From positions 310,001 through 374,000 of the forward strand of contig CANLUS010000001.1 in NCBI GenBank assembly GCA_947494325.1: a stretch of 64,000 nucleotides of DNA. Reading direction: 5' to 3'. Below, in pieces: positions 42,541 to 50,005 of this stretch (positions are counted from its first letter, which is position 1; the number at the start of each line of letters is the position of its first letter). The notes under the pieces were generated by a model. The model ran no database searches, was not told the origin of the DNA, and saw only the letters and a program-made list of their open reading frames with translations. The position numbers and the translations under genes were made by a program. This stretch comes from an uncultured Flavobacteriaceae bacterium. Lineage in GTDB: Bacteria > Bacteroidota > Bacteroidia > Flavobacteriales > Flavobacteriaceae.

Positions 42541-43386
42541 ATGAATATTGCAATACAAGGCATTGAAGGCTCTTTTCACCATATGGTGGCCACAAATTAT
42601 TTTGGAGATAATATCAATTTATCTAAATGCATGTCATTTGACGAAATCCCTGACCTTTTAAGAAACAACATAGCCGACGCCTCTGTCATGGCTATAGAGA
42701 ATTCAAACAGTGGCTCTATCTTATCTAATTACGCGATGATAGATAAATTTGATTTGAATATTCAAGGTGAGGTTTATATCCCAATGATTCATAATGTTAT
42801 GGCCTTAAAAGGACAAACTTTGAAGGATATTAAGGAAGTTTGGTCGCATCCTATTGCGATACAACATTGTGAACGTTTTTTTAGACATCACCCACATATA
42901 AAAATTATTGAAGAAAAAGATACAGCTTTTGTTGCCAAACAGATCAACGAAAAAAAGCTCAAGGGAATCGCAACAATCGCGAGTAAAAAAGCTGCAGAAA
43001 TATATGGTTTACACATCCTAGAAGAACATATACAGACAGATAACCTCAACATGACGCGTTTTTTTATTTTGACAAAAAAACGAGATTTTAATATAGATGT
43101 AAGTGTACTGAATAAGGCCTCATTGAAAATTATTACAAATCATGATTTAGGAAGTCTAGCAAAGGTTCTAAATATTTGTAACGAATACGCGTTAAATTTA
43201 TCTAAAATTCAATCCATCCCAATTCAAGATGAACCTTGGAATTATTCGTTTTTCATAGACTTTACCTATGCTGATTATTTAAAATATTGTAATGCATTAA
43301 TAGCACTAGAAAAAGAAGTATCTAGTCTAAAAATATTGGGTGAATATTCTGAGAACAAACCAGATGAAAAAAAAATGACGGCTTAA
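42541..43386 (+). CDS. pheA: prephenate dehydratase paralogue 1
   Basis: 281 residues: a PDT domain (about 1-180) and an ACT regulatory domain (about 190-275). The PDT active-site segments are kept: MAIENSNSGSIL, VWSHPIAIQHC and the catalytic Thr in MTRFFIL. The ACT domain has DLGSLAKVL and the ligand-binding-like KIQSIPI. It converts prephenate to phenylpyruvate if active. It aligns without gaps to the next copy, with about two thirds of residues identical by hand count. It lies upstream of the attenuator with its own likely promoter. Confidence 0.92.
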   Translation: MNIAIQGIEGSFHHMVATNYFGDNINLSKCMSFDEIPDLLRNNIADASVMAIENSNSGSILSNYAMIDKFDLNIQGEVYIPMIHNVMALKGQTLKDIKEVWSHPIAIQHCERFFRHHPHIKIIEEKDTAFVAKQINEKKLKGIATIASKKAAEIYGLHILEEHIQTDNLNMTRFFILTKKRDFNIDVSVLNKASLKIITNHDLGSLAKVLNICNEYALNLSKIQSIPIQDEPWNYSFFIDFTYADYLKYCNALIALEKEVSSLKILGEYSENKPDEKKMTA

Positions 43387-43453: not shown

Positions 43454-43531
43454 ATGGATACACGAAAATATAGAATTCCAAGAAAAGTTCAATTTAAGAA
43501 AGCGATTATAAACCAACATCTTACGTCATGA
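43454..43531 (+). CDS. possible 25-codon micro-ORF coupled to the second pheA
   Basis: A short frame MDTRKYRIPRKVQFKKAI...LTS whose TGA overlaps the ATG of the second pheA (ATGA). It is very basic and not rich in Phe or Tyr, so it does not look like an attenuator peptide. It could couple translation or be chance. Confidence 0.25.
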   Translation: MDTRKYRIPRKVQFKKAIINQHLTS

Positions 43532-44373
43532 ATGTAGCTATTCAAGGAGTTAGAGGGTCTTTTCATCATTTGGTTGCAAATGAGTTTTTTGGAAATGACA
43601 TTGATCTTATCGAATGCATGTCGTTCAGCGAAATGCCAAAATTACTAAGAAATAGTACCGTAGATGCCGCCATCATGGCAATTGAAAACACAAATACCGG
43701 TTCTATTTTATCTAATTATTTACTTATCGACAAATATGATTTAAATATTCAAGGTGAGGTTTACTTACCCATGCAACATAACTTAATGGCATTAGACGGG
43801 CAAGAATTAAGTGATATTGAAGAGGTATGGTCACACCCTATTGCGATCAAAAACTGTGAAGGCTTTTTTAGAAAAAATCCGCACATAAAAGTAATCGAAG
43901 AAAAAGACACGGCTTTTGTCGCAAAACAAATAAATGATTTAAAAATAAAAGGAATTGCGGCAATAGCAAGTAAAACTGCCGCTAATATTTATGGTTTAAA
44001 AATTTTACAAGAATCAATTCAGGGAGCGCAATTAAATATTACTCGTTTTTTCATTCTAACTAAAAATAGAGATTTTAGTATTGATGTTAATCTGCATAAT
44101 AAAGCTTCTCTAAAATTTGTTACAAATCATAAATTAGGTAGTCTCGCCGAAATACTAAATATATGTGTTCGACACAATTTAAATCTATCTCGAATTCAAT
44201 CGATGCCTATTGTAAATGAGCCTTGGAATTACGCCTTCTATATAGATCATGATTTCAATAATTATTTAGAGTATTGTAAAGCACTATTAACCATCGAAAA
44301 GAAAGTTGACACTTTAAAGATCCTAGGAGAATATACAAAAGGAAAAGAATTCTTAGAAAAAGTAAGTACTTAA
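43528..44373 (+). CDS. pheA: prephenate dehydratase paralogue 2
   Basis: 281 residues with the same architecture as paralogue 1. Active-site segments MAIENTNTGSIL, VWSHPIAIKNC and ITRFFIL are intact; the ACT domain has KLGSLAEIL and RIQSMPI. Paralogues 1 and 2 share SNY after SGSIL/TGSIL, whereas paralogue 3 has the PNYALID form I associate with ordinary Flavobacteriaceae PheA, so 1 and 2 look like the derived pair. It is likely co-transcribed with paralogue 1 across a 141-nt gap and lies upstream of the attenuator. Confidence 0.92.
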   Translation: MNVAIQGVRGSFHHLVANEFFGNDIDLIECMSFSEMPKLLRNSTVDAAIMAIENTNTGSILSNYLLIDKYDLNIQGEVYLPMQHNLMALDGQELSDIEEVWSHPIAIKNCEGFFRKNPHIKVIEEKDTAFVAKQINDLKIKGIAAIASKTAANIYGLKILQESIQGAQLNITRFFILTKNRDFSIDVNLHNKASLKFVTNHKLGSLAEILNICVRHNLNLSRIQSMPIVNEPWNYAFYIDHDFNNYLEYCKALLTIEKKVDTLKILGEYTKGKEFLEKVST

Positions 44374-44470
44374 TTTTTATCTAATTTTCAGCGCATTACG
44401 TAAGAAATAAATAATTTAATGTGGTAAAAATTAACAATCTCACAAAAAACACTGCAATGCGTTAAAAAAA

Positions 44471-44501
44471 TTTGTTTTTTAGACTTTAATGTATAGATTT
44501 G
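44471..44501 (+). promoter_or_regulatory. near-consensus promoter of the aromatic attenuator operon
   Basis: TTTG at 44471-44474, a 19-nt spacer, then TAGATTTG at 44494-44501: both boxes match the Bacteroidota consensus at ideal spacing. Transcription would start near 44508, about 14 nt before the leader ATG. This placement excludes the upstream in-frame ATG at 44489 as the start. Confidence 0.7.
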
Positions 44502-44521
44502 TTCCTTCAAGACAGCGAAGC

Positions 44522-44605
44522 ATGAAATTATTAAACACTTGGCAAGCTTATTTTTACTTCTTTTATTTTTATAAGATGAAGCGAGGCTTTGTAGGTGTTA
44601 TGTAA
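44522..44605 (+). CDS. aromatic leader peptide (27 codons) of the pheA3 operon
   Basis: The frame starts MKLLNTWQA, then eight consecutive aromatic codons YFYFFYFY (44549-44572), then KMKRGFVGVM and TAA. A Trp codon lies three codons before the run. It is the kind of peptide used for ribosome-mediated attenuation, as in the E. coli phe leader. The ribosome would stall in the run when charged Phe- or Tyr-tRNA is short. The codons for RGFVG overlap the antiterminator segment, which fits the required geometry. Confidence 0.82.
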   Translation: MKLLNTWQAYFYFFYFYKMKRGFVGVM

Positions 44606-44639
44606 ATATAAAATCAATAATACGAATTATAAAGTCTCG
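44582..44639 (+). promoter_or_regulatory. antiterminator pairing of the aromatic attenuator
   Basis: CGAGGCTTTGTAG at 44582-44594 can pair with TTATAAAGTCTCG at 44627-44639: 13 bp including three G-U pairs, of which the first nine (one G-U) form the core. The 3' partner is the left arm of the terminator, so the two folds exclude each other. The 5' partner lies inside the leader frame just after the aromatic run. Confidence 0.72.
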
Positions 44640-44660
44640 AGAAATCGGGACTTTTTTTTT
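44631..44660 (+). terminator. attenuator terminator upstream of the third pheA
   Basis: AAAGTCTCGA at 44631-44640, a GAAA tetraloop and TCGGGACTTT at 44645-44654 form a 10-bp stem with one T-G wobble, followed by six more T. It ends 9 nt before the third pheA start, so it lies before the gene it would control. Confidence 0.88.
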
Positions 44661-44669
44661 GCACTATTT

Positions 44670-45536
44670 ATGAGTTTGAAGAAAAAAATAGCCATCCAAG
44701 GAATCAAAGGTTCCTTTCATCATCAAGTTGCCAATCAATATTTTGGTGACAATATCATCTTAAATGAGTGTTTATCCTTTGTGGAAATTCCTGAACTTAT
44801 AAATGATAGCACTGTTGATGGTGCTGTTATGGCCATTGAAAATTCTTTGGCTGGTTCTATTTTACCAAATTACGCGCTTATTGACGAGTACAATTTGAAA
44901 ATTCAGGGAGAAGTACACCTACCTATTCACCATCATTTGATGGGGTTAGAAAATCAAACTATAGCGGATATTCAAGAAGTTTGGTCACATCCAATGGCCA
45001 TCTTACAATGTCGTAAATTCTTTAGGTCCTATCCTCATATAAAATTAGTAGAAGCATCTGACACCGCAGAAGTGGCAAAAATAATCCAAGAAAAGCAACT
45101 TAAAGGAATTGCCGCTATTGCGAGCAAAAAAGCTGCGTCTATTTATAAGTTACAGATTATTGAAAATAAGATTCAAACCAGAGAACAAAACTATACTCGC
45201 TTTTTTATTTTAAAGAAACAAGAAGAAGAAATTGAAAAACCGAAATTAATAAATAAGGCATCATTGAGATTTGTGACAAAACATCAAACGGGTAGTTTGG
45301 TTGATGTATTGGCAGTATTCTCAAATTTTAACATGAGTCTTTCTAAAATACAATCGTTACCCATAATTGATAAACCTTGGAATTATGCTTTTTTCGCTGA
45401 TGTGATTTTCGAAGATCATGATCTATTTAAAAAGGCCATTAACAAGATAGAGGAGAAAACTAGTGATGTTAAAATTCTAGGAGAGTATAAACAAAGTAAA
45501 CGCAAAAAGAATGTTGAAGGCGAACAGATTAAATAG
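44670..45536 (+). CDS. pheA: prephenate dehydratase paralogue 3 (attenuator-controlled)
   Basis: 288 residues from ATG 44670; the upstream open frame contains the terminator and is discarded. PDT segments MAIENSLAGSILPNYALID, VWSHPMAILQC and YTRFFIL are intact; the ACT domain has QTGSLVDVL and KIQSLPI. This copy leads the classical Flavobacteriaceae order with aminotransferase, tyrA and DAHP synthase/chorismate mutase, and overlaps the aminotransferase gene by 26 nt. It is therefore the likely housekeeping PheA. Confidence 0.95.
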   Translation: MSLKKKIAIQGIKGSFHHQVANQYFGDNIILNECLSFVEIPELINDSTVDGAVMAIENSLAGSILPNYALIDEYNLKIQGEVHLPIHHHLMGLENQTIADIQEVWSHPMAILQCRKFFRSYPHIKLVEASDTAEVAKIIQEKQLKGIAAIASKKAASIYKLQIIENKIQTREQNYTRFFILKKQEEEIEKPKLINKASLRFVTKHQTGSLVDVLAVFSNFNMSLSKIQSLPIIDKPWNYAFFADVIFEDHDLFKKAINKIEEKTSDVKILGEYKQSKRKKNVEGEQIK

Positions 45537-46656
45537 CGTAAAAGAATATTATTTCTCTAAAAAACTAAGAGAAGTACGAAAGTTGATAGCAGACGGTAAG
45601 CCTATAATAAATTTGGGTATTGGTAGTCCTGATTTACCTCCGTCACAAGAAGTAATAGATGCTATCCAACACAGTCTGACTCATACAACTATTCATGGTT
45701 ATCAAAATTATCAAGGATTACCAGAATTTCGAAATGCAATTGCAACATTCTATCACCAATATTATAATGTGACAGTTGATCAAAGCGATGAGATTTTACC
45801 GTTAATGGGATCTAAAGAAGGCATTATGCATATATCAATGGCATTTTTAAATGCAGGAGATCATGTTTTAATCCCTAATCCAGGTTATCCCACCTATAGT
45901 TCTGTGACAAATTTATTAGAAGCGACTCCTATCTATTATGACTTAACAAAAGCTAATAATTGGTTTCCTGATTTGGATGCTCTAGGTAAACAAGACCTAT
46001 CAAAAGTAAAATTAATGTGGATCAATTATCCGCATATGCCAACGGGCGCAAAAGCGACAATTTCTCAATTTGAACATTTAATAGCTTTCGCTCAAAAGCA
46101 TCAAATTTTATTGGTTAATGACAATCCTTATAGTTTTATTCTCAATGAGAGTCCTCAAAGCATTTTAGCAGTGAAAGGAGCAAAGGAAGTAGCGTTAGAA
46201 TTAAATTCTCTGAGTAAGTCTTTTAATATGGCTGGTTGGCGCGTGGGAATGGTACTAGGTTCATCGAAAAATATACAATCAGTTTTACAAGTTAAGAGTA
46301 ACATGGATTCTGGAATGTTTTATGGTATCCAACAAGGCGCCATAGCAGCCTTAAATAGTCCAGTTAGTTGGTTCGAAGAATTGAACACTATGTATGCAGA
46401 AAGAAGGGAAATAGCTTGGCATATTTTTGATTCCCTAGAGTGTTCATATGACAAAAGTAGTGCTGGTTTGTTCGTATGGGCACAGATTCCGACAGGAAAA
46501 ACCTCCGAACAATTAGCCGATGAATTATTGTATCATCACAATGTTTTCTTAACACCAGGAACAGTGTTCGGTAGCAATGGCGAAGGGTATATAAGATTAT
46601 CTCTTTGCACTCCGAAAGAACAATTAAAAGAAGTATTAACCAGAGTTTCGAACTAA
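45511..46656 (+). CDS. class I/II PLP aminotransferase (probably aromatic)
   Basis: 381 residues. Motifs: NLGIGSPDLPPSQ, GSKEGIMHISMAFLNAGDHVLIPNPGYPTY, the NYPHMPTGA segment, DNPYSFI and the PLP Lys in LNSLSKSFNMAGWRVGM. The start ANRLNSVKEYYFSKKLREV matches related proteins, so the 26-nt overlap with pheA3 is probably real. Between pheA and tyrA it likely transaminates phenylpyruvate and 4-hydroxyphenylpyruvate (inference). Confidence 0.93.
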   Translation: MLKANRLNSVKEYYFSKKLREVRKLIADGKPIINLGIGSPDLPPSQEVIDAIQHSLTHTTIHGYQNYQGLPEFRNAIATFYHQYYNVTVDQSDEILPLMGSKEGIMHISMAFLNAGDHVLIPNPGYPTYSSVTNLLEATPIYYDLTKANNWFPDLDALGKQDLSKVKLMWINYPHMPTGAKATISQFEHLIAFAQKHQILLVNDNPYSFILNESPQSILAVKGAKEVALELNSLSKSFNMAGWRVGMVLGSSKNIQSVLQVKSNMDSGMFYGIQQGAIAALNSPVSWFEELNTMYAERREIAWHIFDSLECSYDKSSAGLFVWAQIPTGKTSEQLADELLYHHNVFLTPGTVFGSNGEGYIRLSLCTPKEQLKEVLTRVSN

Positions 46657-46657
46657 T

Positions 46658-47515
46658 ATGAAAAAAATAGCAGTTATAGGATTAGGACTCATCGGTGGAT
46701 CATTGGCCCTCGAATTAAAAAAATTAACATGGGCGACCATTTATGGTATCGACAATAACCTTGAGCATATTCAAAAAGCTCTTGATCTCGGCATCATTTT
46801 TAAGGAGGCAACAATAGATATTGTTAAAGAAGTTGACGTTGTGATTATTGCTGTACCGGTAAACGTTATTCCCAAAATTTCGTTAGAGGTACTTAATCAG
46901 ATAAACTCAGACACTTTGGTATTTGACGTTGGTTCGACTAAAACTGCCGTATGTGCCGCAGTAAAAAATCATCCGAAAAGAAAAAATTTCGTTGCGCTAC
47001 ATCCAATTTCTGGGACTGAGTTTTCTGGACCTGAAGCAGCAATATACGATCTCTTTAAGGACAAGGTAAATATTATATGTGAGCAACGTTTGAGTGGTGA
47101 AAAAATGATAGAACGAGCTGTTTCTCTATTTGAAAGTATCAAAATGAGAACAGTATTTATGGATTCTGCAGAGCAACATGACAAGCATATAGCCTACGTT
47201 TCTCATTTATCACACATTAGTTCTTTTATGCTAGGTAAAACAGTTTTAGAAATAGAGAAAGATGAGAAAAGTATTTTTGATATGGCTGGAAGCGGATTTG
47301 AATCTACGGTTAGGTTAGCAAAAAGCAATCCTAAAACTTGGACCCCTATTTTTTTACAGAACAAAGACAATGTATTAAAATCACTTAACGAGTATATAAA
47401 AAATTTAGAAACATTTAAAAAACAATTAGAAGCTGATTCTCGCGAAGAAGTATTTGCTATTATGCAAGATACCAATCGAATAAAAGATGTTTTAGCAGGA
47501 ATAAATAACAAATAA
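46658..47515 (+). CDS. tyrA: prephenate dehydrogenase
   Basis: 285 residues. The N-terminal Rossmann motif is GLGLIGGSLALELK, with DVGSTKTAV and the substrate segment FVALHPISGTEFSGPEAA. HIAYVSHLSHISSFML carries the catalytic-region His residues. It oxidises prephenate to 4-hydroxyphenylpyruvate for tyrosine. No ACT domain is attached. One nucleotide separates it from the aminotransferase gene, and 3 nt from the next gene. Confidence 0.95.
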   Translation: MKKIAVIGLGLIGGSLALELKKLTWATIYGIDNNLEHIQKALDLGIIFKEATIDIVKEVDVVIIAVPVNVIPKISLEVLNQINSDTLVFDVGSTKTAVCAAVKNHPKRKNFVALHPISGTEFSGPEAAIYDLFKDKVNIICEQRLSGEKMIERAVSLFESIKMRTVFMDSAEQHDKHIAYVSHLSHISSFMLGKTVLEIEKDEKSIFDMAGSGFESTVRLAKSNPKTWTPIFLQNKDNVLKSLNEYIKNLETFKKQLEADSREEVFAIMQDTNRIKDVLAGINNK

Positions 47516-47518
47516 ATT

Positions 47519-48598
47519 ATGGAATCAACAAATTTTTCAGCGTGGTTAGAGAAAATGGAATTAGCGCATCCCTTAGTTATTGCAGGCCCATGTAGTGCCG
47601 AAACAGAAGAGCAAGTATTAGAAATTGCTCATGAACTTAAAAACACCGACGCAACTGTATATCGAGCGGGTATTTGGAAGCCAAGAACAAGACCGGGTAA
47701 TTTTGAAGGTAATGGAGCTAAAGCATTGCCATGGATTGCTAAAGTAAAAGAAGAAACTGGTATGCTGACAACTGTCGAAGTTGCGAATGCACAGCATGCA
47801 AAATTAGCACTTGAGTTCGACATTGACATAATTTGGATTGGAGCTCGTACAACCGTAAATCCTTTTGCGGTTCAAGAAATTGCTGATGCCTTAAAAGGTA
47901 CTGACAAAATAGTGTTGGTAAAAAATCCGATTAATCCAGATTTAGAATTATGGATAGGTGCGATTGAACGATTTCACTCAGCAGGAATCAAAAATTTAGG
48001 AGCCATTCATCGCGGTTTTTCTTCTTACAAAAAAACAAAATATAGAAATAATCCGCAGTGGCAAATCCCTATAGAGTTAAAAAATAGATACCCTAAATTA
48101 CCTATCATCTGTGATCCATCTCATATTTGTGGAAGAAGGGATACTATTTTTGATGTTTCACAAACCGCTTTAGATTTAAAATTTGAAGGTTTAATGATTG
48201 AATCTCATTGTGATCCTGACAAAGCGTGGAGCGACGCCAAACAACAAATAACACCGAACAGATTAAAAGAAATCACCGAAGATTTACGAGTAAGGAAGGA
48301 TAGAGTCGAAGAGAAAGACAATGTAAAAAAGTTAACTGATTTACGTTCAGAAATAAATCTACTAGATAAACAGCTTATCGAATTATTATCAGAGAGAATG
48401 ACTGTAGCAGAAAATATCGGTTCGGTGAAAAAACAAGCAAATGTTGCAATTTTACAACGTAGTAGATGGCAAGAAGTAATCCAAAAGATGGTCGCTGAAG
48501 GAAATCAAAACGGTTTGAGTTCTGAATTTATTGAAAGAGTTTTCAAGGCAATACATCAAGAATCAATTCAGCACCAAGAAAAAATAGTAAATAGTTAG
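47519..48598 (+). CDS. bifunctional DAHP synthase / chorismate mutase type II
   Basis: 359 residues. Residues 1-265 are a type I-beta (KDO8P-like) DAHP synthase: VIAGPCSAETEEQV, YRAGIWKPRTRPGNFEG, LVKNPINPD, IHRGFSSY, ICDPSHICGRRD and MIESHCDPDKAWSDA. Residues about 270-359 are an AroQ chorismate mutase (LTDLRSEINLLDKQLIELLSERM...IGSVKKQAN). It supplies both the first shikimate-pathway step and prephenate, so the operon spans entry and both terminal branches. Confidence 0.96.
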   Translation: MESTNFSAWLEKMELAHPLVIAGPCSAETEEQVLEIAHELKNTDATVYRAGIWKPRTRPGNFEGNGAKALPWIAKVKEETGMLTTVEVANAQHAKLALEFDIDIIWIGARTTVNPFAVQEIADALKGTDKIVLVKNPINPDLELWIGAIERFHSAGIKNLGAIHRGFSSYKKTKYRNNPQWQIPIELKNRYPKLPIICDPSHICGRRDTIFDVSQTALDLKFEGLMIESHCDPDKAWSDAKQQITPNRLKEITEDLRVRKDRVEEKDNVKKLTDLRSEINLLDKQLIELLSERMTVAENIGSVKKQANVAILQRSRWQEVIQKMVAEGNQNGLSSEFIERVFKAIHQESIQHQEKIVNS

Positions 48599-48608
48599 TC
48601 TGTATTAG

Positions 48609-48616
48609 TACATTTG
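48609..48616 (+). promoter_or_regulatory. candidate -7 box of the following glycosyltransferase-like gene
   Basis: A perfect TACATTTG, 22 nt before the start codon and 10 nt after the aromatic operon ends. No clear -33 box. Confidence 0.4.
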
Positions 48617-48637
48617 CAGTATTAAGCAATTTAATCT

Positions 48638-49363
48638 ATGACAAGTCGATATATCTTTTGTATGAAATGGGGTACTTTGTACGGTCCAGAATATGTGAAT
48701 AGACTCTATTCTATGGTACAACGCAATCTTTCATTAGATTTCAAAATGGTTTGTTTTACTGATGATGAAAAAGGTATTATTGATGATGTCGATTGTTATC
48801 CAATCCCAGAAATTGAGGTTCCTGGAAATTTACCAGAACGTATGTGGAAAAAACTAACCACCCTCAAAGGAGATTTATATGGCTTAAAAGGCACGGCCCT
48901 ATTCTTAGATTTAGATGTTGTTATTGTAGATAATATTGATTGCTTTTTTGAGGCAGAAGGAGATTTTAGAATCATAAAAGATTACAATAAACAATGGCGT
49001 ATTACTGGTAATTCTTCGGTCTACCGATTTGAGATTGGTGAGCATCCATATGTATTCGATTATTTCGTGAAAAACTTCGATTCAATCAGAAAAGAACATA
49101 GAAATGAGCAAGAGTATTTAACTACGGCAATTCATGACAAAGGTAAATTACAATATTGGCCAACAGCATGGTGCCCTAGTTATAAATATGATTGTGTTTC
49201 TAGAATTCCTTTCGCATTTTGGAAAACACCAAAAATACCTGAAGGTTCTAAAATACTGATTTTTCATGGTGAAATAAATCCTCCTAAAGCCATTACTGGT
49301 GGCAGAGGAAAGTGGTACAGATATGTTGCTCCCGCTCCATGGGTAGCAGATTATTGGAAATAA
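48638..49363 (+). CDS. glycosyltransferase-like protein (GT-A fold)
   Basis: 241 residues. The N-terminus FCMKWGTLYGPEYVNRLYSMVQRN, a KLTTLK segment and the acidic DLD at 91-93 (ALFLDLDVVIVDN) resemble nucleotide-sugar-dependent GT-A enzymes of the GT8-like group. A later ILIFHGEINPPKA carries a conserved-looking His. Acceptor unknown. It stands alone between the aromatic operon and a strong terminator. Confidence 0.72.
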   Translation: MTSRYIFCMKWGTLYGPEYVNRLYSMVQRNLSLDFKMVCFTDDEKGIIDDVDCYPIPEIEVPGNLPERMWKKLTTLKGDLYGLKGTALFLDLDVVIVDNIDCFFEAEGDFRIIKDYNKQWRITGNSSVYRFEIGEHPYVFDYFVKNFDSIRKEHRNEQEYLTTAIHDKGKLQYWPTAWCPSYKYDCVSRIPFAFWKTPKIPEGSKILIFHGEINPPKAITGGRGKWYRYVAPAPWVADYWK

Positions 49364-49365
49364 AT

Positions 49366-49395
49366 AAAAACCCACGAATTTTTCGTGGGTTTTTT
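49366..49395 (+). terminator. intrinsic terminator after the glycosyltransferase-like gene
   Basis: A perfect 13-bp stem (AAAAACCCACGAA at 49366-49378, complement at 49382-49394) with a TTT loop. Flanking A and T runs allow it to act in both directions, also for the convergent LysM gene. Confidence 0.9.
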
Positions 49396-49420
49396 ATGTA
49401 ATATGTAAAACGGAATTACA

Positions 49421-49888
49421 CTATTGATCTAAAACAGGAATACGTAATACTTGACCTGGATAAATCTTGTCTGGATGTGTTAACATAGGTTTGTTAGCCT
49501 CAAATATTTCTGGATACTTCATAGCATTGCCATAGTATACTTTTGCTATTTTACTCAAAGAGTCTCCACTCACTACGGTATGAAATTGCGCTTCTGGCTC
49601 CTGAACAGCTGTTGTCATTTGGTCATCAACACTTGCAATTCCTTCAGTATTACCTACAACCAACACTACTTTTTCCCTAGTTGCTTGATTTTCAGCTTCT
49701 CCGTAAACGATCGCCAAATCACCCTCCACATTTACTTGTAGGTTTTCAACCTGTAAATCTAGCGATCGCACTGCTTCGGTTAACTTTGATGCTTTTTCAA
49801 CTGCAGCTTCAGCGGCTTCTTCTTCCGTTGTTTTTCCGATTCCAAACACTTTCGCACCAGCGTTTTTAATAAATGAAAATAATCCCAT
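49421..49888 (-). CDS. lysM: BON-LysM domain protein (Kbp/YgaU-like)
   Basis: 155 residues, close to the 149 of E. coli Kbp. The N-terminus MGLFSFIKNAGAKVFGIGK is typical, followed by a BON domain (about 30-90; VENLQVNVEGDLAIVYGEA) and a LysM domain (about 100-153; FHTVVSGDSLSKIAKVYYGNA...KIYPGQVLRIP). No signal peptide, as in Kbp, a cytoplasmic potassium-binding protein in E. coli. Whether the role is the same here is inference. Confidence 0.93.
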   Translation of the reverse strand: MGLFSFIKNAGAKVFGIGKTTEEEAAEAAVEKASKLTEAVRSLDLQVENLQVNVEGDLAIVYGEAENQATREKVVLVVGNTEGIASVDDQMTTAVQEPEAQFHTVVSGDSLSKIAKVYYGNAMKYPEIFEANKPMLTHPDKIYPGQVLRIPVLDQ

Positions 49889-49971
49889 AATTTTTGTTTT
49901 GTTTTTAATTGATTAATAAAATTTTTGGTCTTGTGAAGATACAAAATTTTCTGTAGTTTCTCTTTTAGAGA

Positions 49972-50005
49972 TTGCATAATTTTTTAATATCATTTCTTAA
50001 CTTTG
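49972..50005 (+). promoter_or_regulatory. candidate promoter of upp
   Basis: TTG at 49972-49974, a 23-nt spacer, then a perfect TAACTTTG at 49998-50005. Transcription would begin about 11 nt before the TTG start codon. Confidence 0.5.

Follow-up and report, generated by a model that had tools for sequence, protein, structure and literature searches.

A putative Phe/Tyr attenuator upstream of pheA in Flavobacteriaceae: aromatic leader, alternative pairings and range

What controls the aromatic operon that begins with the third of three tandem pheA genes in a flavobacterial genome? The window analyzed here is a stretch of 64,000 nucleotides (nt) from an uncultured Flavobacteriaceae bacterium (assembly GCA_947494325.1, contig CANLUS010000001.1, positions 310,001 to 374,000 of the forward strand), and all coordinates refer to it. 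An earlier note had proposed that this pheA is preceded by a complete transcription attenuator, consisting of a promoter, a leader frame with a run of Tyr/Phe codons, an antiterminator and a mutually exclusive terminator. Every coordinate of the promoter, leader, run, both arms, terminator and pheA spacing that was checked held. From comparison with related loci, the element is most probably a transcription attenuator of the classical ribosome-mediated type that controls the operon of the Phe/Tyr branch, a reading to which we assign a probability of about 0.92. Its parts are the following.

44471..44501, + strand: promoter-like site TTTG-N19-TAGATTTG of the Bacteroidota −33/−7 type, seen in the sequence
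44522..44605, + strand: leader open reading frame (ORF) MKLLNTWQAYFYFFYFYKMKRGFVGVM, 27 codons plus stop, from the sequence and its aromatic-run counterparts at related loci
44534..44599, + strand: predicted leader hairpin, 44534-44541 with 44592-44599 (possible 1:2 or pause hairpin), a weakly supported feature of the minimum free energy fold
44540..44542, + strand: lone Trp codon 5′ of the aromatic run, from the sequence
44549..44572, + strand: eight consecutive Tyr/Phe codons, YFYFFYFY (putative sensor run), from the sequence
44582..44594, + strand: antiterminator 5′ arm (region 2) within the leader frame, core 44583-44587, from pairing across leaders
44627..44639, + strand: region 3, partner of 44582-44594, overlapping the terminator 5′ arm, from pairing across leaders
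44631..44660, + strand: intrinsic terminator with stem 44631-44654, GAAA loop and T-run to 44660, from the fold, its presence at related loci and covariation

The aromatic leader and its conservation

The leader starts with the ATG at 44522, stops at 44603-44605 and encodes the peptide MKLLNTWQAYFYFFYFYKMKRGFVGVM. Relatives align to the ATG at 44522 and not to a second in-frame ATG at 44489, just 5′ of the −7 element. When the 698 ATG ORFs of 10-60 amino acids in the whole 64-kb window are counted from their first ATG, the leader is the only one with at least seven Phe or Tyr in any nine residues, and three others have six. Read directly, the promoter-like site comprises TTTG at 44471-44474, a 19-nt gap and TAGATTTG at 44494-44501, the −33/−7 consensus of Bacteroidota being named in PMC7366714. 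The motif TAnnTTTG occurs within 60 nt 5′ of the leader ATG in 37 of 95 related leaders, compared with a frequency of 0.058 (5.8%) in shuffled upstream DNA, and in 32 of those 37 it ends 16-25 nt before the ATG (20 nt in the window). The putative transcription start lies near 44508.

The 110 related loci were gathered by similarity of the aminotransferase, independently of the leader, and include some genomes twice. A pheA start is available in 106, the excluded loci being L013, L014 and L084 (off the contig) and L105 (no pheA hit). The comparison that the earlier note had proposed, a search for Phe/Tyr-rich leaders in relatives, finds an aromatic-run leader at 105 of these 106 loci. In 103 it is recovered by a mechanical rule that calls for an ATG leader with at least five Phe/Tyr in nine residues (the weakest, L019, has five); in L036 and L103 it appears once the pheA start, initially picked wrongly, is chosen otherwise. 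With L036, L053 and L103 excluded from the terminator and pairing tests, the remaining 103 loci hold 96 distinct leaders. All 96 contain both Phe and Tyr, with means of 5.9 Phe and 3.2 Tyr per leader, and the longest run of Phe, Tyr or Trp has at least five codons in 92. Since 284 of the 877 Phe/Tyr codons end in C, the run is no mere T-tract. By eye, Phe and Tyr swap within the run among leaders, and the residues after it vary widely (RGFVGVM, KRGTGLL, KRNEALYV, KSRD and others) while the RNA pairing persists. Because the element is conserved across relatives, chance is ruled out as its explanation; a chance AT-rich ORF was accordingly rejected on the conservation of leader and pairing.

The leader is also apt to be translated. 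The base at −3 of its start is A and that at −6 is C; among the 96 leaders, A occupies −3 in 78% and −6 in 61%, and none of the 96 shows a Shine-Dalgarno-like motif before the start. According to PMC6847099, A at −3 promotes initiation in Flavobacterium johnsoniae, and Shine-Dalgarno sequences are missing from the phylum. The leader starts show this flavobacterial A−3 context, with no Shine-Dalgarno sequence.

Alternative pairings, spacing and range

Regions 2 and 3 of the window can form 13 pairs, three of them G-U. The terminator that shares region 3 ends at 44660, leaving 9 nt before the pheA ATG at 44670, and is the only terminator-like site on the + strand between 43500 and 50000. A terminator lies between leader and pheA in all 103 loci. 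The leader fold of the window beats 198 of 200 dinucleotide shuffles (z −2.46).

Pairing of the leader arm with the terminator arm recurs across the family. The mean duplex energy of the 96 leaders is −14.3 kcal/mol, compared with −6.4 kcal/mol for shuffled leader arms, and z is below −2 in 88; these shuffles, like those used below outside the family and for the 1:2 hairpin, preserve base composition alone. Five consecutive core pairs, 44583-44587 with 44634-44638, form in 95-96 of the 96 aligned leaders with changes on both arms. The pair 44584-44637 is A-U in 51 leaders, G-C in 45 and mismatched in none, and the adjoining pair at 44582 forms in 81 of 96. The covariation score is 0.286 for the antiterminator (0.207 shuffled, at most 0.145 when slid) and 0.300 for the terminator (0.195 shuffled, at most 0.123 when slid), comparisons in which kinship among the sequences inflates the shuffle control. 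In the terminator, 64 cells carry a two-sided change, a number reached by 0 of 500 shuffles. The core pairs thus behave as predicted for an antiterminator that is mutually exclusive with the terminator, while the outer pairs are poorly kept.

The phylogenetic test was widened to a tree of 132 pheA proteins because the family alone gave too few independent changes; there, the A-U/G-C switch has two contrasts on well-supported branches, both concordant. Summed over the five core pairs, which are neighbours and thus mutually non-independent, the wide tree yields about 13.7 independent contrasts in the direction of pairing, about 0.2 in the opposite direction and about 35 in which the partner is unchanged. 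In the wide alignment, a few distant sequences (e.g. L150, L151, L185 and L191) have region 2 out of place, and the core pairs form in 115-132 of the 132 sequences. Swapping terminator arms across species gives an off-diagonal mean of −11.0 kcal/mol against −14.3 for native arms, with a median of 17% of foreign arms pairing better, a control that is weak because the arms are alike within the family.

The distance between codon run and RNA structure is likewise kept. From the last aromatic codon, with the run delimited by a mechanical definition, to the start of the core there are 8-14 nt in 96 of 96 leaders and 9-12 nt in 92 of them (10 nt in the window), while the first base of the stop codon falls between −3 and +26 nt of the core start (+20 in the window). 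The kept spacing would correspond to the reach of a ribosome that leaves the core free when stalled in the run and covers it when at the stop codon.

Beyond the family, homologues of the element stand in front of pheA in further families of its order and class; one lies in a different class. They were found with a search model built from the sequence of all element columns and the base pairs of the terminator only, the family's arm sequence included. At E ≤ 0.001 the model matches 270 of 299 family genomes in 219 of 236 genera, a count to which the identity of the neighbouring gene does not contribute. Among the better class- and phylum-level hits, which were inspected, 18 of 20 precede pheA with an aromatic leader (L148 in another class). 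pheA also stands downstream of 9 of the 14 best order-level hits and 15 of 20 further class-level regions, but of none of six secondary hits, whose genomes belong to several ranks. For 23 of 27 pheA-linked regions outside the family (omitting L156, at a contig end, and L159, L160 and L163, whose leader peptide is the same as that of L019), the duplex averages −18.5 kcal/mol versus −7.4 shuffled, with z below −2 in 22. For 13 of the 15 further class-level regions (omitting L180, too short a stretch, and L188, without a terminator by rule), it averages −17.0 versus −8.1, with z below −2 in 10. The distant arms often differ in sequence, as in GCCGGGAC paired with GTCCCGG. In a class sample of 345 genomes, 45 have a match at E ≤ 1e-4, and 11 of the 45 are Flavobacteriaceae. 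With the threshold relaxed to E ≤ 0.01, matches extend to 120 of 246 genomes of the order and 109 of 296 of the phylum, and the weak end of these lists likely includes plain terminators. One region of the same order (L162:201-420) carries two tandem aromatic leaders before pheA, MNNLVSTFRFFGFFFFRKEGAMS and MNQNTQQNFSFFGFFFFKWKSEAVD, and the model hits both.

The operon and a model of the switch

Four genes follow the terminator, all assigned by profile matches.

44670..45536, + strand: pheA (third copy), prephenate dehydratase (Pfam PF00800, E 4.2e-57)
45511..46656, + strand: class I/II aminotransferase (Pfam PF00155; the NCBIfam matches shown are all below their cut-offs)
46658..47515, + strand: tyrA, prephenate dehydrogenase (NCBIfam NF006307, 351.7 bits, above the cut-off of 295)
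47519..48598, + strand: DAHP synthase fused to chorismate mutase (Pfam PF00793 and PF01817)

The best NCBIfam match of pheA is prephenate dehydratase at 205.4 bits, short of the cut-off of 219. The pheA and aminotransferase genes overlap by 26 bases, and the gaps that follow are 1 and 3 bases. By these matches, the downstream genes make the amino acids that the leader would sense.

The three tandem prephenate dehydratase genes occupy 42541-43386, 43528-44373 and 44670-45536; the first two are 67% identical to each other and 55-56% identical to the third. Three copies are also present in the two nearest relatives examined (L205, L206) and two in L210 and L211; L207-L209 have the third pheA type alone within the stretch examined. 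Neither upstream gene (42541, 43528) is preceded by a Phe/Tyr-rich ORF with at least six such residues in nine, and by eye TATATTTG lies 34 nt before the start of the first.

In the proposed model, uncharged Phe- or Tyr-tRNA would stall the ribosome in the run at 44549-44572, which ends 10 nt 5′ of the core of region 2. This region would then pair with region 3, the terminator would not form, and pheA, the aminotransferase gene, tyrA and the DAHP synthase/chorismate mutase gene would be transcribed. With both tRNAs charged, the ribosome would reach the stop codon at 44603 and cover part of region 2, as the usual ribosome footprint leads one to expect, so that the terminator could form and transcription would end near 44660. 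Termination and read-through would proceed in this way with charging of Phe- and Tyr-tRNA as the probable signal. Such attenuation had been suggested in the earlier note and gains strong comparative support here: the terminator is present at 103 of 103 loci, the antiterminator core survives two-sided changes, the distance from run to core stays as a stalled ribosome would require, and the profile matches bear out the downstream genes it had named.

Less likely is a single leader that senses Phe, Tyr and Trp alike. Exactly one Trp codon is present in 62 of the 96 leaders, and in all 62 at least four Phe/Tyr codons of the run follow it, so that scarcity of Phe, Tyr or Trp could in each case switch the operon on. 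If true, a three-amino-acid leader would control DAHP synthase, the enzyme with which the pathway begins. It would do this in bacteria whose translation starts without a Shine-Dalgarno sequence, and in Bacteroidota the leading ribosome would have to stay close behind RNA polymerase.

Several observations weigh against an attenuator of this kind. The features of a ribosome-mediated attenuator that sequence can test are present, except that the 1:2 hairpin has a duplex z of only −0.8 in the window and a z below −2 in 45 of 96 leaders. The antiterminator duplex has z above −2 in 8 of 96 leaders, and the outer pairs 44588-44594 form in only 33-75 of 94-96. One of five covariation measures, the number of further antiterminator pair types, is matched by 110 of 500 shuffles; independent changes are few for each pair (4-7 for the A-U/G-C switch), and the family-only phylogenetic test gives no significant pair among those listed. 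Terminator-like sites in 43500-50000 total 3, against 3.3 in shuffles, and are thus not in excess. Kordia aestuariivivens (L053) has no leader 5′ of pheA. The search model has no match in 29 of 299 family genomes (19 of the 249 good ones) and finds nothing at E ≤ 1e-4 in most of the 345 class genomes, where the element is therefore absent or unrecognised. A leader is present in Kordia jejudonensis (L050), unlike in K. aestuariivivens.

Other readings account for these data less well. The leader might be a nascent-chain arrest peptide that senses free aromatic amino acids and not tRNA charging, as TnaC senses tryptophan; it, too, would depend on a conserved leader peptide and on stalled ribosomes, and the signal is in either case deduced from sequence. 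We consider this highly improbable, as the residues after the run are unconserved while the RNA pairing is conserved, Phe and Tyr interchange within the run, and the 8-14 nt spacing fits a stall on the run codons.

It is still less probable that the hairpin is a plain terminator of the upstream pheA copies and the Phe/Tyr-rich ORF a by-product of AT-rich DNA. The hairpin does start 258 nt past the end of the second pheA, and the chance-level number of terminator-like sites in the region agrees with this view. However, conservation already contradicts it: L207, L208 and L209 lack upstream pheA copies in the stretch examined and their genomes keep the leader (L011, L007 and L009, respectively), the C-ending Phe/Tyr codons (284 of 877) do not make a mere T-tract, and the leader and terminator arms covary.

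We give equally little credence to a real switch in which a protein or small-molecule ligand acts on the antiterminator and the leader ORF helps by translation alone. Riboswitches too show two mutually exclusive hairpins, but no Rfam family, T-box and known riboswitches included, reaches its gathering score in the window, and by eye the alignment, taken from the leader ATG on, has no aptamer-like conserved block beyond the run and the arms. A T-box or riboswitch was rejected on the same Rfam result. Least probable of all is that the leader boosts pheA translation through ribosome reinitiation, which has been proposed for short leader-gene distances with a Bacteroidetes peak at 11-14 bp (PMC4833913), since 64 nt and a terminator separate leader end and pheA here and the distance is 51-207 nt in the 103 loci (some pheA starts possibly misassigned).

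Other leaders and known systems

Further candidate amino-acid leaders exist in the same genome. MNFIQLHHHHFHICTQAN precedes hisG (L202, reverse strand, leader at base 696) and MNSKLNNTWWWNSRNSKFVN precedes trpE (L203, leader at 540), both with a terminator; the trp leader matches RF01692 Bacteroid-trp at 56.1 bits, above the cut-off of 49. Two Ile/Val-rich ORFs, maybe two leaders in a row, precede ilvD (L204, at 207 and 343), with no terminator by rule. A Thr/Ile leader was not found 5′ of the homoserine dehydrogenase gene of this genome. At class level, L169, L170 (reverse strand) and L195 carry a Thr/Ile leader such as MIFNTSIITTIIITTGINQRG at base 201, followed by a strong terminator, as side hits of the pheA model. 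Together with the pheA leader, the his and trp leaders suggest that amino-acid synthesis in the family is generally controlled by classical attenuation.

In E. coli and other enterobacteria, the phe attenuator has an aromatic-run leader ORF and alternative antiterminator and terminator hairpins before pheA, and the E. coli leader peptide contains Phe and no Tyr. The flavobacterial element resembles it in the aromatic-run leader, the alternative hairpins and the pheA gene downstream. It differs in that Tyr codons accompany the Phe codons in its leader, the operon downstream has four genes, tyrA and that for DAHP synthase among them, and no Shine-Dalgarno-like motif is present. The best Rfam match is indeed RF01859 Phe_leader, which aligns over all 125 model positions; its score of 31.2 bits (E 0.0013, 251 bases searched) falls short of the Rfam cut-off, 55 bits. 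Of 10 other loci, L023 scores 36.1 and L157 34.3 bits, and the other eight have no match at E ≤ 0.5. Within the same phylum, RF01692 Bacteroid-trp is a family of leader attenuators with Trp codons and trpE, and it does not match the pheA element at E ≤ 10.

Attenuation of this kind is known, and an element at pheA has already been noticed in Flavobacteriaceae. The Flavobacterium psychrophilum transcriptome (PMC9723704, 2021) reports strong clues of leader-peptide attenuation before amino-acid operons and lists, without naming it, a 5′ element before pheA that is conserved in the family; leader-like ORFs have also been noted in Bacteroides (PMC7366714). Five Flavobacterium loci in our set (L066, L079, L082, L094 and L107) carry the leader, the F. 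psychrophilum locus not being among them. The passages of PMC9723704 consulted here give neither the leader sequence of this element nor its covariation, its spacing or its occurrence in other families, and a literature search, with subscription papers outside its reach, found no detailed account of the pheA leader, its covariation or its spacing. New here are the explicit mechanism, the covariation, the spacing rule and the combined Phe and Tyr, often Trp, leader, which provide an explicit, testable model for an element so far listed just as an original conserved 5′ region. As attenuation needs ribosome and polymerase in step, the leader offers a convenient means of probing how transcription and translation are coupled, and such a clean family-wide case makes coupling testable in a phylum described as being without Shine-Dalgarno sequences (PMC6847099).
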